Source: a virus. Taken from it: a stretch of 64,000 nt of DNA. A model generated the notes under the pieces. That model ran no database searches and was not told the origin of the DNA. It was given only the letters and a program-made list of their open reading frames with translations. The DNA lies in IMG/VR virus record IMGVR_UViG_3300037963_003785, positions 7,665 through 71,664 of that record; one strand, written 5' to 3'. Every line of letters begins with the position of its first letter. The stretch's first letter is position 1. A program made the position numbers and the translations under genes. Below, in pieces: positions 17,535 through 64,000 of this stretch.

Positions 17535-17538
17535 ACAT

Positions 17539-17546: not shown

Positions 17547-17572
17547 CAAGAAATGGTAAAAGAAAAGTGGAA

Positions 17573-38526: not shown

Positions 38527-39174
38527 CTAATCAGTAAATATTTTCGATTTTGATAGGTCTGAATATGACTCTGAACCACCCATATCTTCGAAGTTTTTTG
38601 ATTTTTTAAGTAAATCATCGAACAATAGTAGTCCTCTTGCAGCATCTTCAGGTGTCATGTACATATTCCAACCCCTTTGTGTAAACTCTTCATGTTTATC
38701 ATATGGTAATCCATCTATTCTACCACAATATCTTGCTCTTCTAAACCATTCATAAGCATCTTTATTATCGGTCAATATCATCCCACCCTTTCCAATAGGT
38801 ATTATTTTTCTTCTATGAAATGATATACATTGAAAACCAGAAGTGTACATATCTTTTTTAAATCTGACTGCACTATCTATAATATCCAAAGGACGTAAAA
38901 GATAATTACCACTCCACTCGAAGTCTTCAAACTCTACCTTATAACCAGCATTTAATATAGTGTTTGGAACTGAAACATAAGTCCTATTTGGAATCGTTAT
39001 TGTCTGTGGTTTATCAATATACTTTAAACAAAGGAATAATGCATTAGTACAATTATCTACAGATACTGCATATGGTGAACCACAAAAGTTTGCTATCTTC
39101 TGTTCGAACAAATCAATTATATCCCATGCATTATCAACATCAAAATTATCTAACTCAGTTCTTCCAAAATTCAT
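38527..39174 (-). CDS. Short DegT/DnrJ/EryC1-type aminotransferase
   Basis: A 215-residue PLP-dependent sugar aminotransferase-like protein. It keeps the PLP site of the family: VSVDNCTNALFLCLKY (phosphate-binding region) and ISFHRRKIIPIGKGGMILTD, in which the Lys after SFHRR is the expected Schiff-base lysine. Full-length members have about 370 residues; here the protein ends shortly after the GWNMYMTPEDAARGL segment and lacks the C-terminal domain. No downstream frame continues it, because the next gene begins 36 bases later. It may be a functional minimal form, act as a subunit, or be a truncated remnant. Confidence 0.75.
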   Translation of the reverse strand: MNFGRTELDNFDVDNAWDIIDLFEQKIANFCGSPYAVSVDNCTNALFLCLKYIDKPQTITIPNRTYVSVPNTILNAGYKVEFEDFEWSGNYLLRPLDIIDSAVRFKKDMYTSGFQCISFHRRKIIPIGKGGMILTDNKDAYEWFRRARYCGRIDGLPYDKHEEFTQRGWNMYMTPEDAARGLLLFDDLLKKSKNFEDMGGSESYSDLSKSKIFTD

Positions 39175-40126
39175 ACAATCCCCTTTCTACTTCATAATCA
39201 AAATTGATTACTTCTCTTTCAGGTTGATTTTTTGCCCACTCCCACATTTTAGTCAAACCATCTTTTATATCTGTTTTATGACTAAAATCTAATAATTCGA
39301 CACTCTTATCATAAGTTGAAAATGCCTGATGAACTTCGTGTCTTTTTTCTAAAAATTCTATAGGTTCACCAAAACCAACAATGTCTTTTAATATATTAGC
39401 AGCAGCGACTAAACTAATTGGATAAATACCACCTAAGTTTATAATATGTCCATTAGTCCTTGAATCAATACTATTCAATAATGGTTGTAATATATCATCA
39501 ATATAAGTAAAAGCCCTACGTTGTAATCCATCACCAAAAACAGTTATTGGTTCGTTATTCAACAACTTTCTCATCCATATTCCCAATACATTTCTATACC
39601 TATCCCATATGTTTTGTTGTATACCATAAACATTATGAGGTCTGATAATACAATAGTCAATATTGAATTGTTCTTTCATACACCTCAAATCTATTTCTGT
39701 ACTTAATTTACTTACACCATAAGGGTCAATTGGGTTCGGAATATCATTCTCATCGAACGGAGCTTTACCTCTACCATAAACTGCCATCGATGACGTGAAT
39801 ATAACTTTCTTTACTGAATTATTTATAGCAAAGTTAATTACTTGATTTGAAGTTTCAACATTATTTTTAGTAACATAGTTTCTGATAAAAGGTGACAATC
39901 CCTCTGCAGCAAATGCTGCAAAATGAAAAATATAATCAATCTTTTCCTCTATGTTTATTGGTTCTTTTAAATCAATATTATATAACTTAACACGATTGTC
40001 TACAAAATCTCTATACCCACCACTAAAGTCATCTATACCAATAACATTATACTCTGTATTATCCAATAAAAATTTAGAAAAATTAGAACCTAATAGTCCA
40101 CCAACTCCTGTTATTAATATATTCAT
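39155..40126 (-). CDS. NAD-dependent sugar-nucleotide epimerase/dehydratase (GalE-like SDR)
   Basis: A 323-residue extended short-chain dehydrogenase. Rossmann motif GVGGLLGSN at residues 7-15, FHFAAFAAEG near 67-76, catalytic SSMAVYG and YGVSK (Tyr and Lys of YxxxK) and the substrate-region RPHNVYG are all present. Closest in layout to UDP-glucose 4-epimerases or related NDP-sugar epimerases. Overlaps the upstream oxygenase by four bases (ATGA) and the downstream aminotransferase by 20, so it is part of one translational chain. Exact sugar substrate cannot be told from sequence alone. Confidence 0.88.
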   Translation of the reverse strand: MNILITGVGGLLGSNFSKFLLDNTEYNVIGIDDFSGGYRDFVDNRVKLYNIDLKEPINIEEKIDYIFHFAAFAAEGLSPFIRNYVTKNNVETSNQVINFAINNSVKKVIFTSSMAVYGRGKAPFDENDIPNPIDPYGVSKLSTEIDLRCMKEQFNIDYCIIRPHNVYGIQQNIWDRYRNVLGIWMRKLLNNEPITVFGDGLQRRAFTYIDDILQPLLNSIDSRTNGHIINLGGIYPISLVAAANILKDIVGFGEPIEFLEKRHEVHQAFSTYDKSVELLDFSHKTDIKDGLTKMWEWAKNQPEREVINFDYEVERGLYEFWKN

Positions 40127-40776
40127 ACTCTCTGGTAGTATTCTCCAAGTAACATTCTCACTCCAACAGTTACACTAACTTTATTTTCTCTCAACACAAC
40201 CTTTTCATGTTTTAAATAATTTTCGTATGTCATGGCTCTAAAATCAACACTAACCCTTGTATATCCTTCTTTGTTTTTTTTATTACCATGTTTACAATTT
40301 GCACCATCCCATACCACATACTCACCATATTCAGCTTCCATTGGTTTGAAATCTTTTTTATTTGGTTCACTCTCAACCCACACAGCATTTGTATTTTCTG
40401 AACGTGTCATTGGTAGGAAAAAATTAATCTCATCGGATGAGTGTGAATAATCTTTATCTCTATGCCAATGTGCTACAGATAAATTGTTTGGGTGTTGAAC
40501 CCTAAAAGTAGGAACCCTTTGATAGACAAACGATTCTCCATTAAAAAACTTAGGAACTTCCGTACGAACAAAATTTTCAAAGCAGTGAAAAAAATCAGAA
40601 TTTTCTATATCTTCATAAAACCTATTATGCCATTTTGTATATTGTTCTGTTTTTATAGTGTGTTCTTTTTCGGAATCTTCAACTCCTTGATATAACATTT
40701 CAAGTGGATATGCAAATCTCCTTACTAAACAATTTTTAAAATCATACTTTTCAATATCATACGTATAACTTTTCAT
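40123..40776 (-). CDS. Fe(II)/2-oxoglutarate-type oxygenase, StrG-like
   Basis: A 217-residue cupin-fold protein. A facial triad is visible: His105 and Asp107 in HWHRDKDYS and His163 in NCKHGN, with Arg174 in TRVSVDFR as the likely 2-oxoglutarate ligand. The segment NFFLPMT and WDGANCKHGN resemble proteins annotated as streptomycin biosynthesis StrG in marine genomes. It shares this layout with the larger protein at 44939-45856. It probably hydroxylates or otherwise oxidises a sugar or sugar-linked group made by the cassette; substrate unknown. Overlaps both neighbours. Confidence 0.75.
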   Translation of the reverse strand: MKSYTYDIEKYDFKNCLVRRFAYPLEMLYQGVEDSEKEHTIKTEQYTKWHNRFYEDIENSDFFHCFENFVRTEVPKFFNGESFVYQRVPTFRVQHPNNLSVAHWHRDKDYSHSSDEINFFLPMTRSENTNAVWVESEPNKKDFKPMEAEYGEYVVWDGANCKHGNKKNKEGYTRVSVDFRAMTYENYLKHEKVVLRENKVSVTVGVRMLLGEYYQRV

Positions 40777-41632
40777 AAATCTTTCCTAACCTAATATCTT
40801 CTTTCAAATTTATATTATGTTTATTTTTTTCAATTGAATAACTACCCTGCGATGTATCATATAAAAAATCCATCCACCCTTTTATAGCATCACTTGACCA
40901 TAGATGATGAAAACTTCTCATTTCTTTTTGGTCATCAAACGGAACCCTATCTCTAATTTGAGACTTTCTCTGAACCATTTTATTTGTTCGAGGACTAAAA
41001 CCATACCACAACATATAAATATCACTTTCATCGTTCAAAACATTATTTAAATGATTATGATGTCTGCCAGGTTCATATTGACCATAGGATGATTTATGTA
41101 CAAGTCTACGTCCTCTCCATGGATAACTATCTGGTAATAAATTTTGATTTGGATTGTTTCCATCCTCATATACAGCACTTGTACTTAAATCATCTTCATA
41201 AAATCCATGATGTTTTTGTACAGGCAATGGAATATTGTGGTCTAACTCTTCATCATAATTATCGCTTGGGTCTACCATTGATATCGGTATTAGTCCAAAA
41301 CCATTATAGTCCGTCTTATCAAAGTCCTCAACGTATTGGTGAAAGTCCTCATGGAATAAAAATTCAGTAGTATTTAATATACACTTGTAACCATCAACTC
41401 TTTCTTCAATATGTTTAAAATTTTCTTCGTTATTCATAACGGAAAAATCATGAGGATTTGTTGGTGTTACAACTTCCCAAGTTGGACATATGTCTTTTAT
41501 TATTTCTACCGACCTATCTGTACTTTGATAGTCCATTATTATGCCATGGTCAAACAAATCCTTGTGATGATTTAACCACCAAGGCAATAAATACTCTTCA
41601 TTCCATACGTTACTTATAATTGTTTTATACAT
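40757..41632 (-). CDS. Glycosyltransferase family 2-type (Glyco_tranf_2_4-like)
   Basis: A 291-residue protein. The N-terminus ISNVWNEEYLLPWWLNHH followed by FDHGIIMDYQSTDRSVEI is the signature of the Glyco_tranf_2_4 group of GT-A enzymes, in which the acidic residues after DYQS bind the sugar nucleotide. A second motif RRLVHKSSYGQYEPGRHHNH, with clustered histidines, is typical of this group's acceptor region. It is predicted to transfer a sugar to a glycan or protein acceptor in the cytoplasm. It overlaps the neighbouring genes by 19-20 bases. Confidence 0.78.
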   Translation of the reverse strand: MYKTIISNVWNEEYLLPWWLNHHKDLFDHGIIMDYQSTDRSVEIIKDICPTWEVVTPTNPHDFSVMNNEENFKHIEERVDGYKCILNTTEFLFHEDFHQYVEDFDKTDYNGFGLIPISMVDPSDNYDEELDHNIPLPVQKHHGFYEDDLSTSAVYEDGNNPNQNLLPDSYPWRGRRLVHKSSYGQYEPGRHHNHLNNVLNDESDIYMLWYGFSPRTNKMVQRKSQIRDRVPFDDQKEMRSFHHLWSSDAIKGWMDFLYDTSQGSYSIEKNKHNINLKEDIRLGKIYEKLYV

Positions 41633-42798
41633 TCTTCTACTGGCCTATCGTTTTCAAAAAAATGATTTTGATTGTGTATTACTTTTTCTTCTACACTTTT
41701 AAATAAATCATGTTTTTGTTTAGAATCTAATTTACAAACACGTTCGACTTCTGATACGATGAACTTATCTCTTTGCTTACCATGATATTCATCATAGGAT
41801 TCATCGAATATTTCAGGAAATGTTTCAAATCCCCATTCTCTTAATATCTTAAGAGTACCTGGATTACCACTTATTATAAACGGATGACCAGTATGTATTG
41901 GTCTCCAAGTTTTTTCAGTTATAAAAAGATTATGGGTTTTTATATTATGAAGTGAATCATTATAGAACGTGTTATTTTCATTACCACCCTCACTAACAAC
42001 TGAAAAGTAAGAATCGTAATGAAACTTATTTAACCTATCAACCGATGGAGCCGAAGTGTAGTTTATTCCCATACCATCTAAACTGATATTTTTATGTAAA
42101 TAACTTAAATAACAATTCATGTCTTTAAAATTATCGTAAAATAAATCTCTATTCTGTTTACTAATACCATTTAGGCTTAAAAAATCTTTACTTGGTTTCC
42201 TTGTACTCAGAGATTCAAATTCAAATTGTTCTCGACCAATAACTTTAAATCTTTCGTAATTTTTGGGTGCCCAATCATAGTCTGGTCTTCCATTTTCAAA
42301 TTCAAAAACTATGTCGTTTTTAGTAGCAGAATACCAAAAGTTCCAAGATACGACATTGAACTTATATGGATAATCCTTACCACTAAACCATTCATCATAT
42401 CTTTGTTTTAAATTATTATCACCATTTAAAAAATAAGTTGATTCATATTGTTCTTTAGAATAATTTTTTTCTTGATAATATTTATGTAAACAATTAATTG
42501 AATCATTAGGTGACCTTTTTACTTTTTCAAACATAGAATGACCCTCATAAGAATACATGAATATTACTTTCTTTTCAGGAGTCCAAAACTTATCAAAACA
42601 TCTATCTATAGATTTCCAATTAAAAAACATACCCCCATGAAATGCCCAACAAAAATTATTCCTAAGTCTTGCATCCATGTCACGTGGAAACAACTCATCA
42701 TGTTGATAATAATGTTCGTCTAAAGATTCAAAGACCATATCCAATAAATCTTTTTTTGAATATTCCCTAAGTCTTCTGAATGGTTTTTCTTTTTGCAT
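41614..42798 (-). CDS. GT-B-like glycosyltransferase with EK C-terminal domain (paralogue 1)
   Basis: A 394-residue protein whose last 140 residues belong to a family found four times in this window: FSVVSEGG, then LFITEKTWRPIHTGHPFII, LKILREWGFETFPEIFDESY and a helical end with EVERVC. The EKxxxPixxGxPFI block resembles the donor-binding end of GT10/fucosyltransferase-like GT-B enzymes. The N-terminal 230 residues are specific to this copy (RNNFCWAFHGGMFFNWKSID). Likely a glycosyltransferase; donor and acceptor unknown. It overlaps the dioxygenase gene by 32 bases. Confidence 0.7.
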   Translation of the reverse strand: MQKEKPFRRLREYSKKDLLDMVFESLDEHYYQHDELFPRDMDARLRNNFCWAFHGGMFFNWKSIDRCFDKFWTPEKKVIFMYSYEGHSMFEKVKRSPNDSINCLHKYYQEKNYSKEQYESTYFLNGDNNLKQRYDEWFSGKDYPYKFNVVSWNFWYSATKNDIVFEFENGRPDYDWAPKNYERFKVIGREQFEFESLSTRKPSKDFLSLNGISKQNRDLFYDNFKDMNCYLSYLHKNISLDGMGINYTSAPSVDRLNKFHYDSYFSVVSEGGNENNTFYNDSLHNIKTHNLFITEKTWRPIHTGHPFIISGNPGTLKILREWGFETFPEIFDESYDEYHGKQRDKFIVSEVERVCKLDSKQKHDLFKSVEEKVIHNQNHFFENDRPVEECIKQL

Positions 42799-43354
42799 TC
42801 TCCCCTCTAATGTAATCTATATTATTTTTGACATACATCACCAAAAGATTTCTTCTCCAATCCAATGATGTGTTTTTATCTGACCAATGTATTAGATGAT
42901 TATGTAATATGGTAATATCACCCTTATCACAATTTAAAGAAACACCATCTGAATGAAATGGTGGATTGTGACTTTCAGGTAAAACTTTTATACATCCATT
43001 CAATTCATTTGTTTTTTCAAAGTGAACTAAAACATTGATTGTATTTCCATGACCAGCTCTTGTCCAAAAATCATCTTGATGATATGGAAACCCATTTCCC
43101 TCTGGTGGTTTAAATCTCCATTGAGTTTGTACGGGTTCGTTTTTACCTAAAATTTTTGTAACCAATTCATTAAGTCTTTCATCAAAAATTATTTCTTTAA
43201 TTGATGGAGCCTTTTCATGTACTTGTAAAATATTAGAATCAGAGTCCGTATGTTCAAATAACGGATTTGTTTCCTTTATTATTTTGTTGATTAAATCAAC
43301 ATCAAAAAAATTATGTATTGTATGAAAACCTAATTTATTAAATTCATCTAACAT
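42767..43354 (-). CDS. Phytanoyl-CoA dioxygenase family (PhyH) oxygenase
   Basis: A 195-residue Fe(II)/2-oxoglutarate-dependent oxygenase. Iron ligands are His92 and Asp94 in YHQDDFW and His156 in HNHLIHWS, with Arg167 or Arg168 (DWRRNL) as the 2-oxoglutarate anchor. PhyH-type enzymes hydroxylate lipids, amino acids and secondary metabolites. Within this cassette, a hydroxylation or desaturation of a sugar or its side group is likely, but the substrate is not evident. It overlaps the upstream epimerase by seven bases. Confidence 0.85.
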   Translation of the reverse strand: MLDEFNKLGFHTIHNFFDVDLINKIIKETNPLFEHTDSDSNILQVHEKAPSIKEIIFDERLNELVTKILGKNEPVQTQWRFKPPEGNGFPYHQDDFWTRAGHGNTINVLVHFEKTNELNGCIKVLPESHNPPFHSDGVSLNCDKGDITILHNHLIHWSDKNTSLDWRRNLLVMYVKNNIDYIRGENAKRKTIQKT

Positions 43355-44250
43355 AATTGTTCCTTATACCATTCTATAGTTTTACGTAAACCATCTTTGA
43401 TACTTGTTTTTGCTTCCCACCCTATTTCCTCTTTTATCTTTGAAACATCTAACAATCTTATTGGTATCATTGATGGTTTTGTTTCATCATAAACAGGTGT
43501 AACTAAATGATTTTCTATGGTCTGACAATGATGTAATATTTCATTTACAGTTGTACCTTTACCACTACCGACATTGTATATTGTATATTCATCAACCTTA
43601 TTCATAACTTCAACACAAGAGTCAACAAAGTCATCTATGTAAATAAAATCTCTTACATCCTCTCCATCACCCCACACTACAAGTGGTTTTTCTCTATTAA
43701 CAACTTTCATAATTGTAGCAGGTAAGACGTGTGACCTTTCATCGTATTTATCACCAGGCCCATAAATATTAGCTGGTCTGAGAACTATACATTGCATAGT
43801 TGGATTCAAAAAAGTAGAATACATTTCACATAGGTGTTCAGTATATCTTTTCATCCACCCTACTGCATAATAAGATTTATATATATCACCAAAAGTAAAT
43901 TCATCTTCCTTGTTTGGTTTTTCAGCTGTATATGAATACACCACACTACTTGACATAAAAATAAACTTCTTAACTTTATTCACATAACAAGCTTCCATTA
44001 AATTTGCGTTCATTATAACATTAGGTGTGACGTGAGATAAAGGTGAATTTTGCATAACATGAGCACCTGAAGTATTTGCAGCACAATGAAATACAACATC
44101 AACACCTTTTGTTACTTCTAAACAATAATCACTATCTCTTAGGTCACCATCTTTTGTAGATGTACCTATAGCATCATAACCATCTTTTAATAATCTATCT
44201 AATAAATTACTACCTATTAAACCACTTTTACCTGTAACTAATATTTTCAT
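43348..44250 (-). CDS. NAD-dependent SDR epimerase/reductase, GDP-fucose-synthase-like layout
   Basis: A 300-residue extended SDR with Rossmann motif GKSGLIGSN at 7-15, VFHCAANTSGAHVM near 53-66 and FMSSSVVYS near 98-106. The usual catalytic YxxxK is altered: the region reads SYYAVGWMKRYTE (126-138), with tyrosines at 127-128 and the lysine at 134, not four residues after a tyrosine. The rest (RPANIYGPGDKYDERSHVLP, VWGDGEDVRDFIYIDD) is well kept. GDLRD and NTSGA recall GDP-L-fucose synthases, which would follow the GDP-mannose dehydratase upstream, but this is not certain. Confidence 0.8.
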   Translation of the reverse strand: MKILVTGKSGLIGSNLLDRLLKDGYDAIGTSTKDGDLRDSDYCLEVTKGVDVVFHCAANTSGAHVMQNSPLSHVTPNVIMNANLMEACYVNKVKKFIFMSSSVVYSYTAEKPNKEDEFTFGDIYKSYYAVGWMKRYTEHLCEMYSTFLNPTMQCIVLRPANIYGPGDKYDERSHVLPATIMKVVNREKPLVVWGDGEDVRDFIYIDDFVDSCVEVMNKVDEYTIYNVGSGKGTTVNEILHHCQTIENHLVTPVYDETKPSMIPIRLLDVSKIKEEIGWEAKTSIKDGLRKTIEWYKEQLC

Positions 44251-44268
44251 ATTCTTTCCTCTTTAAAT

Positions 44269-44946
44269 TTACCAACCACCAGGCCAATGACCTTCATGTT
44301 TTCTTTCTTTTACTTCTACATCTTTTTTCCACCATTCTCCAATATCATGGTCAAAGTAACCAATTAAATCATAGATTACTTTTTCAGCTGGAAAAGCAGT
44401 CAATGATTCTGGTGAATAATCTAACGTTTGTAATTCTTCTACATGATTTGGTATAGGAACTTTTTTAATGTGTTCTGAATTACAATACCACATATTAGCT
44501 TGAAAGTTTCCAAATTCACCGTGCATATTCATCCCAACCATATCAGAATCATTTAGTAATTCTAAACATTTTTTATGATTAGAAACTAAAGTACTTGAGA
44601 TTATTTTTCTAATCGTATGTAAATCACCATCTCCTTGAACGACCCCAAAATTATTGAAATATAATATTTTTGTGTTTGGTTTATCTTTGTAATAATTTTT
44701 TATATATTTTATTGGTTCTATTTCACACCAAGGCCATCCTTGTTTTTTATCTAATTGATGTACATGAACTTCATCTTTTATTTTTAGGTATCGTGGTTCA
44801 CCACTAATTGTAACATGAATATTATCGGTAAGGTCTTCTACCAATTCAAACAATTCTTCAAATATGGATTGTAAAAAGCCTTTGGCTCTGTATTCCTTTT
44901 CTACATCAGAAAGTAAACAATTGTTATGAATCCATACATCAAACAT
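44269..44946 (-). CDS. Glycosyltransferase-like protein of the 'F.NFGV/HTKGV' family
   Basis: A 225-residue protein with no named family that I can assign. Its centre (KILYFNNFGVVQGDGD, then LLNDSDMVGMNMHGEF and NFQANMWYCNSEHIKKVP) matches the pattern of two other proteins in this cassette, at 49537 and in the N-terminal half of 61678-63087: a strand ending in a (F/H)xxGV motif, a helix pair, DxVG, then an aromatic W.N/W.A segment followed by K(V/L)P. These look like GT-A-related proteins, with the aromatic motif near a substrate pocket. It overlaps the upstream oxygenase by eight bases. Confidence 0.65.
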   Translation of the reverse strand: MFDVWIHNNCLLSDVEKEYRAKGFLQSIFEELFELVEDLTDNIHVTISGEPRYLKIKDEVHVHQLDKKQGWPWCEIEPIKYIKNYYKDKPNTKILYFNNFGVVQGDGDLHTIRKIISSTLVSNHKKCLELLNDSDMVGMNMHGEFGNFQANMWYCNSEHIKKVPIPNHVEELQTLDYSPESLTAFPAEKVIYDLIGYFDHDIGEWWKKDVEVKERKHEGHWPGGW

Positions 44947-45856
44947 CTATCAAATCTCTTATACTACTTTTGTGATATCCGAACTTTCCACCTGGTCTAA
45001 ATTCAGCACCCATTCTACCTTTACCTCTATACAATGGTCTACCATCGAGAACTTTCCATTCATAATCTTCTACAGGTATAATTCTAACATCTAAAGATAT
45101 CCTTGTTGTGTAATCATCATCATGTTGTCTTGACTCGCCAGTATGTATACATCTTGAATCAAATACAAATAATTCATCATTTGTAATTTTTAATTCATCA
45201 GATTCTAAAAAACCATAGTCATTAAATATACTATTTGCACTCCAAGACATTTCTATAAATTTATCAAAATTAAATCCATAAGCAGAATACCATCTCAAGG
45301 ATTTATCTATACCCATAATTCGTAATCCACTTCTTTTGTTTTTAGTCAAAGACCACCACAAATTTATCTCTCGTGGTGAGTGTCCATATTGTACATCAGA
45401 ATGATATCTTGGGTAATGTGTTGCACCATACTCATCCGCATCAGGAAAATGAAATCTAAATGTAGGTGTTTCTTGAAAATAAAAATCAAATCTGAAAACA
45501 TCTTCATACAAATGTTTTAACCACTCATGATATAGATTTATAAATTTATCATCGGTCTCATAAAACAATCTACCTACTTCAGATATGCCATGGTCTATAT
45601 CGTAGTTTATTAATTCTTGGTCTAACTTAGAATGTAAATTCTCCAAGTCTTCAGATTTATCATATGATATCAATTCTTTATCATCTAACATCCTACGGAC
45701 TTCATCTCTGTATTTGATAGACCATTCTTTGTTATCTATCTTTATTTGGTCATCACCGAAATTTTCTATCATAGAACCAAATCTACGATATTCTTTTTCA
45801 TAGTGTTTTTGTATATTATTTTGATGTATTGCTTTTACTTCTTGAACTGTTTTCAT
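44939..45856 (-). CDS. Fe(II)/2-oxoglutarate-type oxygenase with long N-terminus
   Basis: A 305-residue protein. The C-terminal 180 residues carry a facial triad: His152 and Asp154 in YPRYHSDVQYGHS, His238 in RCIHTGESRQH and Arg252 in TTRISLDVR, in the same layout as the protein at 40123-40776. The 120-residue N-terminal part is helical and charged (KHYEKEYRRFGSMIENFGD), possibly for substrate or partner binding. Likely a sugar- or glycan-modifying oxygenase. It overlaps both neighbours (41 bases upstream, 8 downstream). Confidence 0.72.
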   Translation of the reverse strand: MKTVQEVKAIHQNNIQKHYEKEYRRFGSMIENFGDDQIKIDNKEWSIKYRDEVRRMLDDKELISYDKSEDLENLHSKLDQELINYDIDHGISEVGRLFYETDDKFINLYHEWLKHLYEDVFRFDFYFQETPTFRFHFPDADEYGATHYPRYHSDVQYGHSPREINLWWSLTKNKRSGLRIMGIDKSLRWYSAYGFNFDKFIEMSWSANSIFNDYGFLESDELKITNDELFVFDSRCIHTGESRQHDDDYTTRISLDVRIIPVEDYEWKVLDGRPLYRGKGRMGAEFRPGGKFGYHKSSIRDLIDV

Positions 45857-46808: not shown

Positions 46809-47328
46809 TGTAGTAATCACCCCACTCTACAATAAGTGAAGAACCCTCTCCATGATAAGCGTCTTGGAAAGCTGGTAATATCTCTTCAGGTTCATTTAAC
46901 AATACAACATTAACTTCATTTAATAGGTCTTTGAATATTTGGGTGTAGTCCTGTGTGTGTTGGATACCACCATTCAAAGGATGTTTTGCACCTATTGATG
47001 TTCTCATGATAACTTTAGGTTTAAAATTACCCTCAGTCATTTCTTGCATTTTATCAAGGTGATTTACCAAAGAATCCATTGCTCTCATTAAAAAGTCAAA
47101 TCTTGGAAAACAACTTATTGGGATATGTCCTTCAAGTGCCATTCCAACACTCATACCCATTTGTATTTCCTCAAAGACTGGTGTTTCTATTTTCTTACTA
47201 TCGTCTAAAGTGCTTAAAGTATTATAGATTGCATTACCACTATATTTTACAGATTGACCCATAAAGATAGTGTCGTCTTGTTGACCCAACCATTCCATAC
47301 TATTTATTAATTCATCTTTGTATTTCAT
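46798..47328 (-). CDS. TPP-dependent enzyme, pyrimidine-binding (E1-beta-like) subunit
   Basis: A 176-residue protein consisting of just one domain: the Pyr domain of transketolase/E1-type thiamine diphosphate enzymes. VFEEIQMGMSVGMALEGHIP supplies the conserved Glu that activates TPP; FDFLMRAMDSLVNHLDKMQ and VIMRTSIGAKHPLNG follow as in E1-beta. The usual C-terminal transketolase domain is absent. It directly follows the PP-domain gene; ATG 47328 has AGGAG five bases upstream (a neighbouring ATG at 47331 is also possible). The two subunits would form the TPP site together. Confidence 0.83.
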   Translation of the reverse strand: MKYKDELINSMEWLGQQDDTIFMGQSVKYSGNAIYNTLSTLDDSKKIETPVFEEIQMGMSVGMALEGHIPISCFPRFDFLMRAMDSLVNHLDKMQEMTEGNFKPKVIMRTSIGAKHPLNGGIQHTQDYTQIFKDLLNEVNVVLLNEPEEILPAFQDAYHGEGSSLIVEWGDYYNEK

Positions 47329-47336
47329 CATAACTC

Positions 47337-49525: not shown

Positions 49526-49533
49526 ATAAATAT
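49526..49533 (-). promoter_or_regulatory. ATATTTAT box upstream of gmd leader
   Basis: Sense strand reads TTGATATATATTTATATACAG, 124 bases before the start at 49401. It overlaps the end of the upstream glycosyltransferase gene region and precedes the structured leader. Confidence 0.4.
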
Positions 49534-49536
49534 ATA

Positions 49537-56547: not shown

Positions 56548-58001
56548 TGTACCTTTACCCCATATCTCTTTGTGAAAGCAACGCCGTCTTGATATGAGTT
56601 TACAATAGGTTGACCTTTTATGTTTAAAGACGTGTTCAAAACCATTGGACATCCTGTCTTCTTATAAAACTCCTTGATTAGTTTATAGTAACCTGGATTA
56701 TCATCTTTACTTACAGTCTGTACTCGTGAAGTGTTATCAACATGACAGATAGCAGGATATTTATCAGGATACTTACAAGGTGCAACAAATTGCATAAACT
56801 GAGATTTACGAACTGGCATATCAAATATTTCGTGTGCGTGCTCTTCTAACACCGATGGTGCAAAGGGTCGAAACTTTTGTCTACGTTTTATCTCGTTTAC
56901 TTTATCTTTAATCTCATCACCTCGTGGGTCTGCTAACAAACTACGATTACCAAGAGCTCTTGGGCCAAACTCTGCCCTACCACTTGCAACTCCTACAATG
57001 TTACCATCCAACAACTCATTCAAAACTTTACGCCATGGATATCTACCTTTTATATCATATCCTGTAAATGGTGTTTTCCAATTTACGTGTTCACCAAATA
57101 GATAAGCTGCACAACCAAGTGATGAACCAGCATCACCAGGATTTGGTAGTATCCATAATTTAGGATAATGGTCACGAGCTATGATTGAGTTAGCCACACA
57201 ATTTAAGGCTACCCCACCCATGTATACACAATTATCTGTTTCAGGTACTAACTCCTTAGCTTTCAAAAATATTTTTTGAATCTCTTCCTCAATGACAGAT
57301 TGTGTGTTTGCTGCAATATGAAACTTCCATTGTTCTGAACCATCATCAGGATAGTATTTACTATCCCACCCTAAACAACCTCTATGTAAATTGTGATGAA
57401 GTAACTCTCTTAGTTCTGATTTTATTTTTTCATTTACTTGTCCATAAGCAGCCATTCCCATAAGAATGTATTCATCTTCTTGTGGTTTTAATCCAAGTCG
57501 TTGTGTTATAGCTGAATAGAATAAACCAAGTGATTGTGGGTAAGTCATACTCCATCTTTTTTCAAAGTGACTACCCCAAGCATACCATATAGTAGCCGTT
57601 TCAAACTCACCTATCGCATCGATGTTAACAATACATGCCTCATCATACGGACTCGTGTAATATCCAGCAGCTGCATGTGATTGATGATGTTGAACATAAT
57701 TAATAGGAAGTTCACCAATATATCTTTTTAGATATTTCTTTGGTGTATTGTCAAGTTGAAATACTTCTTTGTACTGACCAGCCTTGAGTTGTCTGTATTT
57801 CTTTAGCCAAGGGCGTTCAAAATAAGCAACCTTATCTGGTTTTCCATATCGATACATATCTGCAAATATAGCAGCATGTAACTCGGAATCATTTTTTATT
57901 CCAGAGTATCTTTCTGAATGTGCAGCAAATACGACTTCTCCATTATCAATTAAAGATATGGACGCGTCGTGATTCAGTGCGTTTATTCCTAATATTCTCA
58001 T
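56544..58001 (-). CDS. Carbamoyltransferase (NodU/CmcH/TobZ family)
   Basis: A 485-residue enzyme that would carbamoylate a hydroxyl group, typically of a sugar, using carbamoyl phosphate and ATP. N-terminal Kae1-like domain: GINALNHDAS at 5-14, QHHQSHAAAGY at 104-114 (metal-binding histidines), DAIGEFETATIW and MGMAAYGQ. C-terminal YrdC-like domain: GRAEFGPRALGNRSLLADPR at 341-360, KFRPFAPSVL, and MVLNTSLNIKGQPIVNS near the end. The C-terminus is a little short but includes the family's last conserved block. Start ATG 58001 has GAGG seven bases upstream and overlaps the radical SAM gene by 56 bases. Confidence 0.92.
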   Translation of the reverse strand: MRILGINALNHDASISLIDNGEVVFAAHSERYSGIKNDSELHAAIFADMYRYGKPDKVAYFERPWLKKYRQLKAGQYKEVFQLDNTPKKYLKRYIGELPINYVQHHQSHAAAGYYTSPYDEACIVNIDAIGEFETATIWYAWGSHFEKRWSMTYPQSLGLFYSAITQRLGLKPQEDEYILMGMAAYGQVNEKIKSELRELLHHNLHRGCLGWDSKYYPDDGSEQWKFHIAANTQSVIEEEIQKIFLKAKELVPETDNCVYMGGVALNCVANSIIARDHYPKLWILPNPGDAGSSLGCAAYLFGEHVNWKTPFTGYDIKGRYPWRKVLNELLDGNIVGVASGRAEFGPRALGNRSLLADPRGDEIKDKVNEIKRRQKFRPFAPSVLEEHAHEIFDMPVRKSQFMQFVAPCKYPDKYPAICHVDNTSRVQTVSKDDNPGYYKLIKEFYKKTGCPMVLNTSLNIKGQPIVNSYQDGVAFTKRYGVKVH

Positions 58002-60000
58002 TCATAACCTCATAGTCTGTAAATGGTAATTTAGAGGACGGAACTTTGTCTACCATATTTTTACCAAACCCTATTTTTCTTCTTCCAACTAATTTCCCTG
58101 CAAAGTCTTGAAAATCAGTCCATGTTTCTTTAGGATAAAAATTATAACCTGTAGTTTCATTTATTACTTCTTTATTCATATAAAGATTATAATATGATTT
58201 AGAGTATATTTTATAAATAGAACCAACGTTGTTAAAATCAACAATTAAATCTTTATTGAACTCTACAATCTCTGATAACTCTAGCTTATCGACATCACCA
58301 AATTGTTCTTTATAAAAGTTTTGTAGTTCTTGAAAAACTTGTGTCTTATTTTTATGTAAAACAAACTGAAGTCTACAATAAAAATACCAACCTAATATAT
58401 TAATGTCATCGTAATCTTTTCTTGAAGAATAGTCTTTTGTTTCCAACACCTCTCTAATATCAGTAGAATGTAACTCATAAAAATAATTTAAAAATAATTC
58501 TTTGTTTTCCACAATATACTTTTGTAATTCATCATAAAATTTATAGTAAGAAACATTATAATATTTGTTTAAATATCTACTGACATATTGTGTCCACCCT
58601 AAGACGTGAAAGTTTATTATGATTACATTGAATAAAACAGCATCTAACCAATCAGTAAAAGGCATTGTGTTTGTCTCGTAAACAAGTTCTACTATTTCTG
58701 GTGTAGGGTCGTCTTCAGGATTATTGTTTGTGATATAATTTTTTATTGGTTTTGTTTTTATACCAAACACTTCCCTTAGATTTTTATCATTCAAGGGTGC
58801 ACCTTCTAAAATTTCACAAAACCATAAATCCATTGATGTATGTTGACCAGCTTCTAATAAATCATTTATACCTTTTTTCCAAGTGTCTAAGGTTTCTAAT
58901 GGTAGACCAAGTATAATCTCTGTATAATTAGGTATACCCTTTTCATCACACTTCTCAATTATCTCTTCAAACTTCTGTATTTTCATATTAGAACGTTCGA
59001 TAACTTTTAACGTTTCAGGATTCATAGATTGAAAACTTAAAGTCAACCCTCTCATCAATCCAACGTCATTCATTTTTTCAGAGATTCCTAATATTCTTTC
59101 GTTACTATTTTTAGCCCAAGCAATTTGATAAGCAGATGGATATCCTTGTTCGACTTTACACTTTACCATATGGTCTGCTATAGCTAAATCTCTTTTATTA
59201 TAAATACCAAAGTTTGCATTAGCAATGTTTACAAAATCTATCTTTTCTTTATTAACCCACTCTATCTCATCATATACTCTGTCTCTACCAAACTTTTTTA
59301 ATTTAGAGTAGGTCAACGTACCCCAATCACAAAACGTACACTTATATGGACATCCTCTATCGGTCTCCATTACCATCGACCATTTTGCATTTGGTTCTTC
59401 TTTCAGTATATCATCGAATAAACCAATTGTATATGGTGACGGAATATCATCTAAATTTTCAACTCGTAATTGTGGTGGTGTTGAGATAACCATACCATCC
59501 TTTTTAAAAGACAATCCTTTCACATCACTAAAATCATTTGTATCAATATAGGTTTCAAGTATTTGTTTGAAAGTAATTTCACCCTCACTATGTACTAATA
59601 CATCTGCATACTTATACTTTCCTTGTAAAGAACTTTTATCTATTCTTCTACCTGACTCAACTGTTTTTGTACCAAACCCTTTCTGTGGTACTGACGGGCC
59701 TCCTACAACTATTAAACAATTTGGATATTTTTCTTTTATTAATTTTATTACTTTTAGATTATATTGGTCATTCCAAAGATAAGCAGAAAATCCAACTACT
59801 GATGGATTGTCGAGTTTTTTTAAATATTCTCTTGGATTTAATCTTTTATAAAACAATCCTTTTAGTTTGTAATTATCAGTAACAATATCTGAAGTAGTGC
59901 AATACGACCATAGAGTAGCAACAGAGTATGGTAAATAGTATCCACTATTTTCACCATATCCTGTTTTAAAATTTACACTAAAAAGATATACATTTTTCAT
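57946..60000 (-). CDS. B12-type radical SAM enzyme
   Basis: A 684-residue protein of the B12-binding/radical SAM family. N-terminal cobalamin-type Rossmann domain: YYLPYSVATLWSYC near 21-34, VGFSAYLWN, CLIVVGGPSVPQ near 95-106 and DVLVHSEGEITF. Radical SAM core: RGCPYKCTFCDWG with Cys217, Cys221 and Cys224 for the 4Fe-4S cluster; later TLSFQSMNPETLKVIERSNM and EIILGLPLETLD as in the family. The last 250 residues are a helical extension. It may C-methylate or otherwise remodel a sugar or lipid-linked group. It follows the epimerase (ATGA overlap) and precedes the carbamoyltransferase. Confidence 0.88.
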   Translation of the reverse strand: MKNVYLFSVNFKTGYGENSGYYLPYSVATLWSYCTTSDIVTDNYKLKGLFYKRLNPREYLKKLDNPSVVGFSAYLWNDQYNLKVIKLIKEKYPNCLIVVGGPSVPQKGFGTKTVESGRRIDKSSLQGKYKYADVLVHSEGEITFKQILETYIDTNDFSDVKGLSFKKDGMVISTPPQLRVENLDDIPSPYTIGLFDDILKEEPNAKWSMVMETDRGCPYKCTFCDWGTLTYSKLKKFGRDRVYDEIEWVNKEKIDFVNIANANFGIYNKRDLAIADHMVKCKVEQGYPSAYQIAWAKNSNERILGISEKMNDVGLMRGLTLSFQSMNPETLKVIERSNMKIQKFEEIIEKCDEKGIPNYTEIILGLPLETLDTWKKGINDLLEAGQHTSMDLWFCEILEGAPLNDKNLREVFGIKTKPIKNYITNNNPEDDPTPEIVELVYETNTMPFTDWLDAVLFNVIIINFHVLGWTQYVSRYLNKYYNVSYYKFYDELQKYIVENKELFLNYFYELHSTDIREVLETKDYSSRKDYDDINILGWYFYCRLQFVLHKNKTQVFQELQNFYKEQFGDVDKLELSEIVEFNKDLIVDFNNVGSIYKIYSKSYYNLYMNKEVINETTGYNFYPKETWTDFQDFAGKLVGRRKIGFGKNMVDKVPSSKLPFTDYEVMNENIRNKRTESRRVHIFN

Positions 60001-61004
60001 TTATTCCACCACTCAAGTGAGCCTTTGTTATCATAAATATCGGAATGTTCAGTATCATGATTATATCTTATCCATTCAAAAGTATTTTTTAATCCCTCTT
60101 CAAGAGTATACTTTGGTTTCCAATCTAAATCTTTTTCAACTAAACTATTTTCAGAATTACGAGTTCTGACTCCAATCTGTTTAACGTCTATGTTTTTGAT
60201 TTTTGTTTCCTTACCACTAAACTTTATTGCAAGTTTAGCCAATTCATTTATAGATACATCTTCTTCTGAACCAATATTATATGGGCCTGATAATTCACTA
60301 TCCATCAGTTTAGAAACTCCGTTAATACAATCATCAATATACAAAAATGAACGTCTCTGTTTTCCGTCTCCATAAACTTCCATAGTACCATCAGACTCTA
60401 TCGCCTTTCTACACATAGCCGCTGGTGCCTTTTCTTTACCACCATCAAAAACTCCACCAGGCCCATATATGTTGTGAAACCTTGCAATCTTTACATCGAA
60501 TCCATGATTCTTTTTATAAGCTAAATATAATCTTTCACTAAATAATTTTTCCCACCCATATTCAGAATCAGGATTCGCTGGATATGCGAACTCTTCTTTT
60601 AATGCAGGTGAGCCTTTTTTGTTTTGTCTTTCATTTGGATAGATACAAGCAGAAGAGGAATAAAATACTTTCTTTATAGATTTTCTTTTCATTACATCAA
60701 GTACATTTAAATTTATTCGAGCTGAATTTGACATTATATCCGCATCATGTTCTTCTGTAAAAATGTAATCAGCTCCACCCATATCTGCAGCAAACTGATA
60801 AACTTCGTCTACGAACGTACTAATAACAGAATCACAAAAGTTATAATCAGTCAAGTCTCCTTTCACGAACTCATCAGCTTCGGTTAAAGAAAACTCAGGT
60901 GACTTTAAGTCAACACCTCTGACCCAATGTCCTTGTTTTCTTAAATGACTAACCATAGCATTACCTATGAAACCACCTGCTCCTAATACAACTATGTTTT
61001 TCAC
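59997..61004 (-). CDS. GDP-mannose 3,5-epimerase-like SDR
   Basis: A 335-residue extended SDR. The start is GTG 61004, with GGAG six bases upstream and a GTGA overlap with the previous stop. It matches the GME group: GAGGFIGNAMVSHL, YQFAADMGGADYIF, SSSACIYPNER, DSEYGWEKLFSERLY (YxxxK), ARFHNIYGPGGVFDGG and EKAPAAMCRKAI. GME converts GDP-mannose to GDP-galactose/gulose. With the GDP-mannose 4,6-dehydratase downstream, the cassette appears centred on GDP-mannose-derived sugars. Confidence 0.9.
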   Translation of the reverse strand: MKNIVVLGAGGFIGNAMVSHLRKQGHWVRGVDLKSPEFSLTEADEFVKGDLTDYNFCDSVISTFVDEVYQFAADMGGADYIFTEEHDADIMSNSARINLNVLDVMKRKSIKKVFYSSSACIYPNERQNKKGSPALKEEFAYPANPDSEYGWEKLFSERLYLAYKKNHGFDVKIARFHNIYGPGGVFDGGKEKAPAAMCRKAIESDGTMEVYGDGKQRRSFLYIDDCINGVSKLMDSELSGPYNIGSEEDVSINELAKLAIKFSGKETKIKNIDVKQIGVRTRNSENSLVEKDLDWKPKYTLEEGLKNTFEWIRYNHDTEHSDIYDNKGSLEWWNK

Positions 61005-61684
61005 TCGACACTCCAATCTAATTTATTATAATATGACATTACGATATCCTTGTAAATTATTTTATTCCCATACTTTTCTTTGTACTTATTTATAAAATCA
61101 AAATCTTCCCCATCGTTATTACTACCACCAACAAAGTTGTCAAATAAAATATCGTCCTTTGTAAATACAGCCTGTGCCATATCTACAGCACCTTTTCTCC
61201 ATTGATTGTATCCATACATTGATTTATCTTCAGGTGTCATATCTGTTTTTTCTTCGTAAAAACAATTTCTAATTCTAAAGGGTGTGTTATCCCAATACCA
61301 CCATTGTTGGTCACCACAATCTTGTGAGAAAATATACATTGGAGCTTCATCTTTGACTAATTCATCAAGACCATTATAAAAATTTGGATGTAACAAATTA
61401 TCATCATCCAAGTGAAAAGTCAAATTATATTTAGCAACTTCTTGTCCAAGATTTCTACCTCTTGACCTTGACTTACCGAGAAGTCCATCACCAGTTATTT
61501 TTTCGAAGTAGGTAGAAATATAATCATCTTTATCAAACTCATTAAAGCCTAAGAATTCATCATCAAGGATAAGAACCCATTCAGTATCCCATCCGTTCCA
61601 ACTTATACTTTCTATACTCTCTTTAATAAGTATTAAGTTATTTGGCCTTGTTACAAGAGTTATTATTGATATTTGTTTTACCAC
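61001..61684 (-). CDS. Glycosyltransferase family 2-like protein
   Basis: A 227-residue GT-A glycosyltransferase-like protein: ISIITLVTRPNNLILIKESI at the N-terminus, WVLILDDEFLGF, FHLDDDNLLHPNFYNGL near 90-106 (DDD metal-binding motif) and a C-terminal NNDGEDFDFINKYKEKYG acidic base region. It is about the same length and has the same order of motifs as the C-terminal half of the next upstream gene, so the two came from duplication. It overlaps that gene by seven bases. Confidence 0.82.
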   Translation of the reverse strand: MVKQISIITLVTRPNNLILIKESIESISWNGWDTEWVLILDDEFLGFNEFDKDDYISTYFEKITGDGLLGKSRSRGRNLGQEVAKYNLTFHLDDDNLLHPNFYNGLDELVKDEAPMYIFSQDCGDQQWWYWDNTPFRIRNCFYEEKTDMTPEDKSMYGYNQWRKGAVDMAQAVFTKDDILFDNFVGGSNNDGEDFDFINKYKEKYGNKIIYKDIVMSYYNKLDWSVE

Positions 61685-63087
61685 TTAAGATTAGTTTCCG
61701 TTACTATGTTTATATCCCAACTCAGTCTATTATAATAACACAAAACCTCATCACTAAAAACCATATTTTCAACACCATATCTTTCTCTAAACTCATTTGC
61801 AAAATGCCAATCTTCTTGTATATCAATATGTTTGGTGTCTTTTGGGTCTTGTGGTGGTGTACCCTCATATTTAAATTCTTGGTATGGATTTTTAAATATC
61901 ATCTGTGCAGTATCTATATTACCACACCTAAACCATTCATCAGTTTTTACTATCCCACCATAACCTTGCTCATCACAATCTTGTGCTACAATATACATTT
62001 TTGCATCTTGTTTAGTAAGTTCTGTAAGTCCTTTGAAAAAGTTAGGATGTACTAAATTATCATCATCACATCTATAAACTAATTCATGGTTAGCAACTCT
62101 CAGTCCCCAATTTATACCATCAAGTTTACCTGGCCATCCTAATATGGGTTTGAACCAAACTTGTATCCAAGGCTCATCAATATCAAATTTAAAATCTTCT
62201 AAACTATCATCTATAATCAACACCCATTCAACATCCCAACCATCCTTATCAATTGATTGAATATTATTTTTTATAATCTCAACATTATGTGGTTTAGTTA
62301 CAGAAGTAATTATAGATATGTTTTTTACTAAGTCATGAACCTTTGGTTGAGCATATCCAATCCATTGTTCTGCTAGATAACGAGTTTCTTCAGGCCATTC
62401 ATGACCACCAGTTAACGCTCCTTTACCACGTTCTTTTATATAAATTTTATCATAATCTAAATCAAAGGAATAGATATTAGGTAACCTTTTTATATATGAT
62501 ACATTTGCCCACCAAAAGTTATTAGTGGGAAAATTAAATGGTTTATCAGGTGTTCCATAGTAACCTAACTTTTCTCCTTGATGTGATTTACCAATACCTA
62601 CTACATCGTACTTTTTTAATTTATCAAGAGCAACATCGATATTACCAAATATAGTTTTTTCAAGATATAATCTTTGTTCTTCTCTTTTCTTAGTTCCTAC
62701 TGAAACTCCTTTTGTATGAAAATATAAAACGACATCATCATCTGGTAATTCTTCACAATATTTGTGTAAATAATCTAAGGTTATTATTTCCCCATCATTA
62801 ATATTAGATGACAGTTTTATAACATTTAATTTATCTCCCCAATAATCATCAAAGTTTTTTGGTAATGAGACCTCTCCATCACCAACAATACAAATATTTA
62901 ACTTACATTCTACATTTTCTTCTTGTCTAAAGTATTTAATCAAAGAACCAATTTGTGCTCTAAATAAACCTTTGTAATCTGCCCACGATACGTCTTCTGA
63001 AGCACGTGTGTAAAAATTAACAAACGTCTCGGTGTCTTTTTCTTCGATAGAATCTACTGTTGCAACGTGATAAAATATATGTATCAT
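61678..63087 (-). CDS. Two-domain glycosyltransferase: HTKGV domain plus GT2 domain
   Basis: A 469-residue protein. Residues 1-250 contain VVLYFHTKGVSVGTKKREEQ, DVVGIGKSHQGE and NFWWANVSYIKRLP, the HTKGV family domain shared with the genes at 49537 and 44269. Residues about 255-469 are a GT2-type domain (ISIITSVTKPHNVEIIK, WVLIIDDSLEDF, RCDDDNLVHPNFFKGL), paralogous to the next gene. Such fusions in one chain would let two sugars be added in sequence (inference). An AT-rich gap of about 100 bases precedes it. Confidence 0.8.
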   Translation of the reverse strand: MIHIFYHVATVDSIEEKDTETFVNFYTRASEDVSWADYKGLFRAQIGSLIKYFRQEENVECKLNICIVGDGEVSLPKNFDDYWGDKLNVIKLSSNINDGEIITLDYLHKYCEELPDDDVVLYFHTKGVSVGTKKREEQRLYLEKTIFGNIDVALDKLKKYDVVGIGKSHQGEKLGYYGTPDKPFNFPTNNFWWANVSYIKRLPNIYSFDLDYDKIYIKERGKGALTGGHEWPEETRYLAEQWIGYAQPKVHDLVKNISIITSVTKPHNVEIIKNNIQSIDKDGWDVEWVLIIDDSLEDFKFDIDEPWIQVWFKPILGWPGKLDGINWGLRVANHELVYRCDDDNLVHPNFFKGLTELTKQDAKMYIVAQDCDEQGYGGIVKTDEWFRCGNIDTAQMIFKNPYQEFKYEGTPPQDPKDTKHIDIQEDWHFANEFRERYGVENMVFSDEVLCYYNRLSWDINIVTETNLKW

Positions 63088-63191
63088 TTATATATAAACG
63101 GGTCTTTTCTTTTCATTTTTCTGATTCGTTGTTTGAATTTGTACCACCTATATATTTTGAAGTACAACAATTTAATTTTTCCAAACATAAA
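63088..63191. other. Intergenic gap without a clear feature
   Basis: An AT-rich gap before the two-domain glycosyltransferase gene. It has TTTATATATAAATG on the sense strand at the start codon, but no clear hairpin terminator, repeat or small gene. Confidence 0.4.
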
Positions 63192-64000
63192 TTACACTCC
63201 CTCGTAAATTTGAGCTACTTCTTTAGCAGGTTGATAATAACTATTTTTGGTTGTCCATATATTATAGTTATGTTCTAATATTTCTCGTTGGTCTTTGTAC
63301 CAATCTAACATACTCTTACTATCCATTTCACAGATACGTTCACATTCATCAAGTATCATTTTTAATCTTTTTCCGTTGTTCTCTTCTTTATCATATTCTT
63401 GATTTATAAAAGGTTCAAATGACTTGTAACCCAAAGACTCAAACTTTTCTATAGAACCAGGTGTAGTCATGAATAATATTGGACTATACCAAGCCACACA
63501 TTTAAAAACTTTTTCACTTAAAAATATCGTTCTGACATCAAAGTGGGTTTCTGATAATAAATTAAAAAAAGTATTATCATATAGAGCTCTATTAAAAACC
63601 ATAGATAGGTTAGGACTAAAATCTTCCACATCTGCTATAAATGGTGTCTTATCAACTAACTCTTCTATATTACCATGTTCAAAAAAAGCAGAAGTACTTA
63701 TATCTTTATTATAAGGATATGAATGTTCATTTAAAAATCTCTTCTTACTCATATCTCCTATATTAACTTCTGAATCTAAACTAAAACTTACGAGACCTTT
63801 GTCTATTATATTTCTTTGATTTAAACCTGCAGTCATTGCAATTCTATAAGACCTTTTACGTCTACACAACCACAAATAATATTTTATCTTTTCTAAATTA
63901 TCTTTTTTGTAGTTATACATTTCATCAAAATATATTGGTAATTGTAATTCTATTTGGTCTCTAACCATACGTTCATTGTGTAAAACTTCTATAATATTAC
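63192..64000 (-). CDS. GT-B-like glycosyltransferase with EK C-terminal domain (paralogue 4, 5' end outside window)
   Basis: The frame is open to the window edge, so the N-terminus is missing; an ATG at 63968 is probably internal because codons above it stay open (NIIEVLHNER). The visible part has RSYRIAMTAGLNQRNIIDKG, LVSFSLDSEV, FNLLSETHFD, FLSEKVFKCVAWYSPILFM, FESLGYKSFEPFINQEYD and a helical end with ECERIC, as in the three related genes here. In this copy the proline of the EKxFKP block is replaced (KCVAW). Predicted glycosyltransferase of unknown specificity. Confidence 0.72.
   Translation of the reverse strand, partial: NIIEVLHNERMVRDQIELQLPIYFDEMYNYKKDNLEKIKYYLWLCRRKRSYRIAMTAGLNQRNIIDKGLVSFSLDSEVNIGDMSKKRFLNEHSYPYNKDISTSAFFEHGNIEELVDKTPFIADVEDFSPNLSMVFNRALYDNTFFNLLSETHFDVRTIFLSEKVFKCVAWYSPILFMTTPGSIEKFESLGYKSFEPFINQEYDKEENNGKRLKMILDECERICEMDSKSMLDWYKDQREILEHNYNIWTTKNSYYQPAKEVAQIYEGV

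Follow-up and report, generated by a model that had tools for sequence, protein, structure and literature searches.

An intact tail-associated glycan locus of an uncultured T4-like virus, with a six-gene module predicted to modify GDP-heptose

Introduction

Here, we describe a glycan-building locus of approximately 39 kb in an uncultured, aquatic, T4-like virus represented by an 87,553 bp IMG/VR record (IMGVR_UViG_3300037963_003785), of which positions 7665-71664 form the 64,000-nucleotide stretch analyzed here and referred to as the window. The reading we favor, with a probability of about 0.6, is that this is an intact, tail-associated glycan locus whose core – a module of six genes – modifies GDP-heptose. 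The product is most likely an unusual, probably branched, surface-type sugar derived from host-made GDP-heptose.

Several of the components have precedents. Large lipopolysaccharide (LPS)-type clusters are known in marine phages (PMC3037559), GDP-mannose 3,5-epimerase (GME) and carbamoyltransferase genes have been described in cyanophages (S-SCSM1; PMC9602691), and modified GDP-heptoses are known in Campylobacter. A preliminary description of the window regarded the gene combination as unusual, which does not hold for the cassette at large: the cultured cyanophage S-SCSM1 combines, within a single stretch of cell-wall genes, a carbamoyltransferase, a 2-oxoglutarate (2OG) oxygenase, GMD, Fcl, and GME, and pelagimyophages carry glycosyltransferase (GT) regions (PMC7029224). 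However, the GMD of S-SCSM1 clusters with E. coli Gmd, and S-SCSM1 is not among the phages matched by two proteins considered below, the PP subunit of a thiamin diphosphate (ThDP) enzyme and a B12-dependent radical SAM methylase. In the open-licence literature – earlier accounts elsewhere are possible – we found no description of a heptose dehydratase and epimerase combined with two SDR enzymes and a PP+PYR ThDP enzyme, nor of viruses that carry this combination without its upstream half and share it with abundant ocean bacteria; likewise, no report was found there that brings together GDP-heptose, a dehydratase, and phages, or cyanophages, carbamoyltransferase, epimerase, and LPS.

Position and intactness of the locus

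The virus has a T4-like core, with major head, portal, terminase, and tail sheath genes identified using PHROGs. Among cultured phages, the major capsid and terminase are closest to those of Microcystis phage Mel-JY01 and Flavobacterium phage immuto (Immutovirus), at 50-55% identity, and its core is mostly collinear with that of Mel-JY01; it is thus not a close pelagimyophage or cyanophage. The cassette begins at position 38527 and contains, to the end of the window, 25 complete open reading frames (ORFs) and one cut by the edge, rather than the 24 genes counted initially, all on the minus strand and, as first noted, nearly all overlapping. A further ~14 kb, to approximately record position 85378, also belongs to the cassette and encodes two additional SGNH-like proteins, another radical SAM protein, three proteins of GT7-LamG type, and more GT-like proteins.

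Beyond the end of the cassette lie S74 chaperone, glycine-rich, and tail genes, and the opposite flank carries an adenylyltransferase-like protein and terminase; phage structural genes bound the cassette on both sides. These flanks place the locus in a variable region that is already known to be tail-associated in marine T4-like phages. The tail-associated hypervariable regions of pelagimyophages, which act in host recognition, average 44.6 kb and contain GTs (PMC7029224), and the locus described here resembles them in spanning tens of kb, in having GT genes beside tail genes, and in belonging to a T4-like phage, although by capsid and terminase its virus is closer to Mel-JY01 and Immutovirus. 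A large glycan cluster adjoining tail genes is an already known trait of marine T4-like phages.

Two independent contigs are 99.3-99.8% identical over the cassette, and one, of 106 kb, also spans both phage flanks, with 98-99.8% identity across cassette and flanks. The pooled differences comprise 57 synonymous and 49 nonsynonymous changes and no new stop codon (dN/dS ~0.20), and in the genes of the heptose module there are nine synonymous and no nonsynonymous differences. The cassette genes are thus intact, collinear across independent assemblies, and under purifying selection, and the proposal of an intact phage glycan locus with rare chemistry is borne out; decay through inactivating changes and a chimera of host and phage DNA, the two outcomes raised against it, are both contradicted. 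That LPS clusters might serve as stuffer DNA was suggested earlier by cyanophage authors (PMC3037559), but for this locus either stuffer DNA or misassembled host DNA is extremely improbable, given that both junctions are spanned by independent assemblies, that selection is evident and stops are absent, and that the module is kept in dozens of viral loci.

A six-gene module shared by viruses and bacteria

The module consists of the following genes:

43348..44250, minus strand: SDR b (Fcl-like); NF047922 180 bits, below the equivalog cut-off
45816..46820, minus strand: SDR c; PF01370 132 bits
46798..47352, minus strand: ThDP enzyme PYR subunit (E1beta PYR domain only); PF02779, structural model, invariant Glu61
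47337..47954, minus strand: ThDP enzyme PP subunit, E1alpha-like, 205 aa; PF00676 54 bits, GDM-x27-NN motif
47951..48442, minus strand: GDP-4-keto-heptose 3,5-epimerase-like cupin; C. jejuni epimerases 157 bits, RmlC 84 bits
48424..49401, minus strand: GDP-heptose 4,6-dehydratase-like SDR; PDB 7us5 237 bits, GMD 114 bits; tree placement

A scan of IMG/VR with the PP subunit yielded 16 loci, and a PP alignment 435 relatives, of which 80 were kept; with duplicates having identical PP proteins dropped, the viral set contains 61 non-redundant loci, each 15 kb or longer. Of these, 60 have PYR, 55 have SDR c, 55 have the epimerase, 53 have SDR b, and 41 have the dehydratase; all six genes fall within 10 kb in 33 of the 61, and at least five do so in 52. 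By comparison, among 34 background viral loci centered on the radical SAM gene and having no PP, PYR and SDR b were each found three times, and SDR c, the epimerase, and the dehydratase not at all. Gene order within the module varies between loci, which suggests functional linkage rather than recent copying. The carbamoyltransferase was considered as a further fixed component and rejected (14/61 versus 4/34 loci, p 0.28).

Several viral and bacterial loci (L007, L012, L076, L077, L082, and L085) also encode acetolactate-synthase-like ThDP proteins or split transketolases near the module, so that three kinds of ThDP enzyme gather there.

In a single genome scan, the PP protein was also found in bacteria: in single-cell genomes of SAR11, in genomes of gammaproteobacteria, and in metagenome-assembled genomes (MAGs) of Chloroflexi or Dehalococcoidia, the latter presumably of SAR202 type given their marine origin. 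At least one SAR11 copy lies on the chromosome, as it shares a 220-kb contig with tRNA synthetase genes. Of 13 bacterial loci, all six module genes are present in eight, SDR b in ten, and SDR c in twelve. There is an HddA-like kinase nearby in ten and a GmhA-like isomerase in seven, and other loci have HddC or an HddC-GmhB fusion. Four separate steps of a single GDP-heptose pathway are thus represented beside the bacterial copies, which points to GDP-heptose as the module substrate. One SAR11 operon (L089) contains in a row PP, PYR, HddC-GmhB, dehydratase, epimerase, HddA, SDR b, a Nudix protein, a radical SAM methylase, and an aldo-keto reductase (AKR), linking the B12 methylase to the same sugar.

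The viruses differ in the supply of this precursor. HddA is near only one of the 61 viral copies as against ten of the 13 bacterial ones (Fisher p 4e-9), and none of GmhA, HddA, HddC, and GmhB is encoded anywhere in the virus record. If GDP-heptose is the substrate, such viruses must draw on the host pool, and this virus probably modifies the GDP-heptose of its host. The cassette had been thought to encode a near-complete pathway, which it does not: the record lacks any GDP-heptose-making enzyme and any exporter, and no flippase- or polymerase-like hydrophobic protein was seen in the cassette.

Heptose or mannose as the substrate

Comparison with enzymes of solved structure gives scores for the dehydratase and the epimerase that are about twice as high for heptose enzymes as for GMD or RmlC. 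The best solved relative of the dehydratase, PDB 7us5, is of the heptose type, and in a tree the protein clusters with the C. jejuni heptose dehydratase and bacterial homologues, with E. coli Gmd and the S-SCSM1 GMD falling outside. The epimerase, a cupin initially called RmlC-like, is closest to the C. jejuni GDP-4-keto-heptose epimerases. We consider it quite likely, therefore, that the core acts on GDP-heptose.

The parallel is with the C. jejuni GDP-heptose pathways (DdahABC and MlghBC; PMC7949155, PMC10680097), which likewise use a 4,6-dehydratase and a cupin 3,5-epimerase, together with a reductase of the Fcl-like family that may have a counterpart in the module, and which the bacterial module copies also match in having GmhA, HddA, GmhB, and HddC alongside. 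Unlike these pathways, the module includes a second SDR and a ThDP enzyme of two subunits, and its viral versions have no GDP-heptose synthesis genes. One GDP-heptose paper checked for thiamin or branching mentions neither.

Of the GMD- and GME-type SDRs reported in the preliminary description, only the latter stands, and with it all that appears to fit the proposed GDP-mannose-derived sugar: the GME (59997-61016) belongs to the true GME family over its full length (263 bits) and is 56% identical to cyanophage homologues. For the dehydratase and epimerase a GDP-mannose origin was rejected on the PDB scores and the dehydratase tree, the bacterial neighbors also pointing to heptose.

Several observations nonetheless weigh against a heptose-modifying module. 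The window's dehydratase lies on a long, divergent viral sub-branch of the tree, and the epimerase, although it retains Asn and His of the heptose type at the C7 site, has Ser at the C7-contact position corresponding to DdahB Ile56 (PMC7949155), a mixture that makes its heptose specificity less certain. Matches of the phage SDRs to NCBIfam models, and the best matches to HddA, GmhA, and HddC in the bacterial loci, are all below equivalog cut-offs. The background loci to which the viral set was compared are centered on the radical SAM gene rather than random, although the contrast in gene content is large, and the analysis covered 10 kb of flank.

The first two of these features would also suit a core that uses GDP-mannose or another GDP-hexose, giving a 6-deoxy or branched hexose. 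The true GME in the cassette is in keeping with this alternative, as are the presence of GMD, Fcl, and GME with a carbamoyltransferase in S-SCSM1 and the ability of C. jejuni reductases to accept a mannose-derived keto sugar (PMC7949155). Set against it are the twofold difference in scores and the location of the bacterial copies among GmhA, HddA, HddC, and GmhB, and we judge a hexose substrate to be distinctly unlikely.

In both SDR b (43348-44250) and SDR c (45816-46820) the Tyr is shifted relative to the Lys of the YxxxK motif, in a Trp-x-Lys context common to most relatives. As candidate C4 reductases, both score about as well against Fcl as against several other SDRs.

A minimal two-subunit ThDP enzyme

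The PYR subunit (184 aa) corresponds to the PYR domain of E1beta without the transketolase C-terminal domain; its model (pLDDT 87.8) aligns with E1beta over the N-terminal half alone (TMq 0.83, TMt 0.48), and Glu61 is invariant in 14 sequences. The PP subunit ranges from 193 to 236 aa across the viral loci, and two of five SAR11 genomes with PP have a longer E1alpha-like gene elsewhere (327-338 aa open frames), indicating that the short form is distinct from ordinary E1alpha. In the LPS clusters of cyanophages S-SM2 and P-TIM68, PP and PYR are a single protein (402 and 381 aa) in the same order and related to both subunits; the identity is 41-46%, and the neighboring enzymes are different. The fusion indicates that the two small proteins act together without the usual third domain.

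Addition of a C2 branch to 4-keto sugars has been attributed to the pyruvate-dehydrogenase-like pairs AviB1/B2 and Pau11/12 (antibiotic octoses) and to the TPP enzyme YerE (yersiniose); a ketoreductase follows, as with the AKR Pau7 (PMC4753412, PMC4425429). The phage pair is like these in placing an E1alpha/E1beta-like ThDP enzyme beside 4-keto-sugar enzymes, and by this analogy could add an acyl unit, as a two-carbon branch, to the 4-ketone of a deoxyheptose, a role that we put forward tentatively. However, those enzymes act in a hexose rather than a heptose context, and counting against the analogy, the AviB-type enzymes are full-length E1 subunits (325 and 345 aa in Pau11 and Pau12), so the reaction of the phage pair could differ.

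The pair might instead make a precursor – for example, by a transketolase-like supply of sedoheptulose phosphate – or act as a decarboxylase, leaving the sugar nucleotide untouched. PP and PYR are distantly related not only to E1 but also to transketolase and DXPS, split transketolases also occur in some loci, and the S-SM2 and P-TIM68 fusions are near annotated phosphoheptose isomerase and kinase genes. But the top matches are to 2-oxo-acid dehydrogenase E1 and not transketolase, the true split transketolases are separately encoded in the same loci, and PP and PYR co-occur with the epimerase and with the dehydratase that forms the 4-keto group; we regard these other roles as unlikely.

Other genes of the cassette and its flanks

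The remaining genes of the cassette within the window are as follows:

38527..39174, minus strand: short DegT/DnrJ-type aminotransferase, 215 aa; PF01041 67 bits
39155..40126, minus strand: SDR sugar-nucleotide enzyme a; PF01370 145 bits
40123..40776, minus strand: putative Fe/2OG oxygenase; no Pfam match, HRD...H...R motif
40757..41632, minus strand: GT2-like protein; PF13704 weak, below cut-off
41614..42798, minus strand: 'SEK' family glycosyltransferase, GT-B fold; AlphaFold mean pLDDT 74, GT10 alpha1,3-fucosyltransferase Z 10.7, T4 BGT Z 10.1
42767..43354, minus strand: PhyH-type Fe/2OG oxygenase; PF05721 66 bits
44269..44946, minus strand: no assigned family, possibly GT-like; no family match
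44939..45856, minus strand: putative Fe/2OG oxygenase; no Pfam match, HSD...H...R motif
49537..50376, minus strand: possible GT-like protein; no family match, impression from sequence
50364..51131, minus strand: DUF5672 protein (GT-like); PF18922 58 bits
51124..52002, minus strand: DUF5672 protein (GT-like); PF18922 69 bits
51995..53095, minus strand: SGNH-like protein; PF19547 weak, below cut-off, GCSFS and HPS motifs by eye
53079..54287, minus strand: 'SEK' family glycosyltransferase; aligns with 41614-42798
54256..56652, minus strand: fusion of a methyltransferase-like domain and an 'SEK' glycosyltransferase; PF12692 24 bits (below cut-off), alignment with the SEK family over the C-terminal part
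56544..58001, minus strand: NodU-type carbamoyltransferase; PF16861 193 bits, PF02543 133 bits
57946..60000, minus strand: cobalamin-dependent radical SAM methylase, TokK/CysS/KedN5 class; TokK 317 bits, CysS 188 bits, NF033712 229 bits (below cut-off)
59997..61016, minus strand: GME family SDR; PDB GME 263 bits, next family 98 bits
61001..61684, minus strand: GT2-like protein; no Pfam match, by eye like the C-terminal half of the 61678..63087 protein
61678..63087, minus strand: two-domain GT2-like protein; PF00535 22.5 bits, just below cut-off
63192..64000, minus strand: 'SEK' family glycosyltransferase, truncated by the end of the window; full length at L002 2857-4260

Pfam supports most of the enzyme classes named at the outset: five SDRs, the RmlC-like protein, the split ThDP enzyme, the B12-radical SAM protein, the carbamoyltransferase, a PhyH-type oxygenase, and the DegT protein. 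Of three Fe/2OG oxygenases proposed, the PhyH-type is confirmed and the other two have the HxD...H...R motif with no Pfam match; the methyltransferase, SGNH, and most GT labels have Pfam scores only below cut-off. Ten orphan proteins have no PHROGs match, and the window contains no Rfam match and no tRNAs.

The radical SAM protein resembles the methylases TokK and CysS in its cobalamin radical SAM class, its Fe-S motif (CPYKCTFC, CxxxCxxC, at 217), and its lower-face Trp76, the corresponding Trp of TokK being reported under the cobalamin (PMC12846815); unlike them, it sits in a sugar locus. Pfam scores are 40.8 bits for the radical SAM domain and 23.7 bits, below cut-off, for the B12 domain. 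Relatives are found in 54 IMG/VR loci, with one weak match in the GenBank phage collection. Relatives of the carbamoyltransferase are present in 142 phage records.

Some further features of the cassette and its surroundings were observed. The putative oxygenase gene at 40123-40776 contains 29 of the 106 differences between contigs (13 synonymous, 16 nonsynonymous), and may be a local hot spot or recombination tract. The DegT protein is 215 aa compared to a 360-position model, with much of the C-terminal part missing, yet it is intact in near-identical genomes. In the related 106-kb contig, the 3268-aa ORF adjoining the cassette (L164:95-9901) is probably a giant tail protein, and an ORF at L166:4521-5641 starts with a sequence resembling a type IV pilin N-terminus (GFTLIELVMVTIILGILAAVAIP), as does its neighbor, which is odd for a phage. 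Two tail-side proteins (L002:14891-16405 and 17379-18410; record ~82890-86409) have a C-terminal Hint/intein-like stretch (CFLVGTEV... and CFLAGTKI... to ...HN), one with a weak Hom_end_hint match, and are possibly self-processing structural proteins.

Glycosyltransferases and the acceptor

The 'SEK' family has four members in the cassette and more than 100 relatives in the loci. Foldseek alone gave weak matches to the 41614-42798 model (best E 0.019), and a second structural comparison indicated a GT-B fold nearest to GT10 fucosyltransferases, with ties to T4 BGT and others. GT10 fucosyltransferases use a GDP-sugar.

At L002:7651-13252, galactosyltransferase domains of GT7 type are joined to lectin domains of LamG/concanavalin-like type (two cases identified by Pfam and a third by eye), a lectin-GT layout that recalls protein-glycosylating enzymes.

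The GT7-LamG fusions and the tail-side location favor a cytoplasmic acceptor such as a tail protein, although host machinery could export the glycan. The cassette does not have the full set of a complete LPS or capsule locus (flippase or ABC exporter, polymerase, and initiating transferase). Among 39 cassette proteins there is no strongly hydrophobic segment comparable to those of membrane proteins used as controls, and the record yielded no Wzm/Wzt exporter. These absences, like the tail-side position and the fusions, argue against a glycan that remodels the host envelope rather than the virion, for superinfection exclusion or surface change; they are not decisive, as host machinery is usable. 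Envelope remodeling is compatible with heptose chemistry, three Chloroflexi MAGs carry the module in surface-type loci that also encode Wzm/Wzt exporters, and the pelagimyophage authors favor O-chain modification (PMC7029224), such that the chances of this alternative are only a little short of even.

Proposed pathway and implications

With GDP-heptose as the substrate, the dehydratase (48424-49401) would generate a 4-keto-6-deoxy-heptose, and the cupin epimerase (47951-48442) would invert C3 and/or C5. The ThDP pair (47337-47954 and 46798-47352) would then add an acyl unit from a 2-oxo acid donor at the 4-ketone, most likely giving a branched C9 sugar, and the SDRs at 45816-46820 and 43348-44250 would reduce the ketones. 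In side branches, GME may form GDP-L-galactose or L-gulose, and other enzymes may attach C-methyl, carbamoyl, and hydroxyl groups and possibly acyl groups as well; the glycan would be assembled in the cytoplasm by a dozen soluble glycosyltransferase-like proteins. The order of these steps is the one we infer.

More broadly, this may be a new pathway, widespread in aquatic viruses and in SAR11, SAR202-type, and gammaproteobacteria, in which GDP-heptose is converted by a minimal PP+PYR carboligase to a nine-carbon branched sugar, in some cases B12-methylated, with the viruses carrying the modifying half and depending on the host GDP-heptose pool. We regard this wider proposal as less likely than not.

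The model unites genes annotated only as 'LPS genes' in a single pathway open to testing, predicts that usable hosts are makers of GDP-heptose, and names a sugar to seek on virions or SAR11 surfaces. The locus also offers for study a two-domain ThDP enzyme of very small size that exists in nature as a fusion as well. Whether LPS genes of phages have a function or are stuffer DNA is an old question, and for this locus conservation and selection answer it in favor of function.

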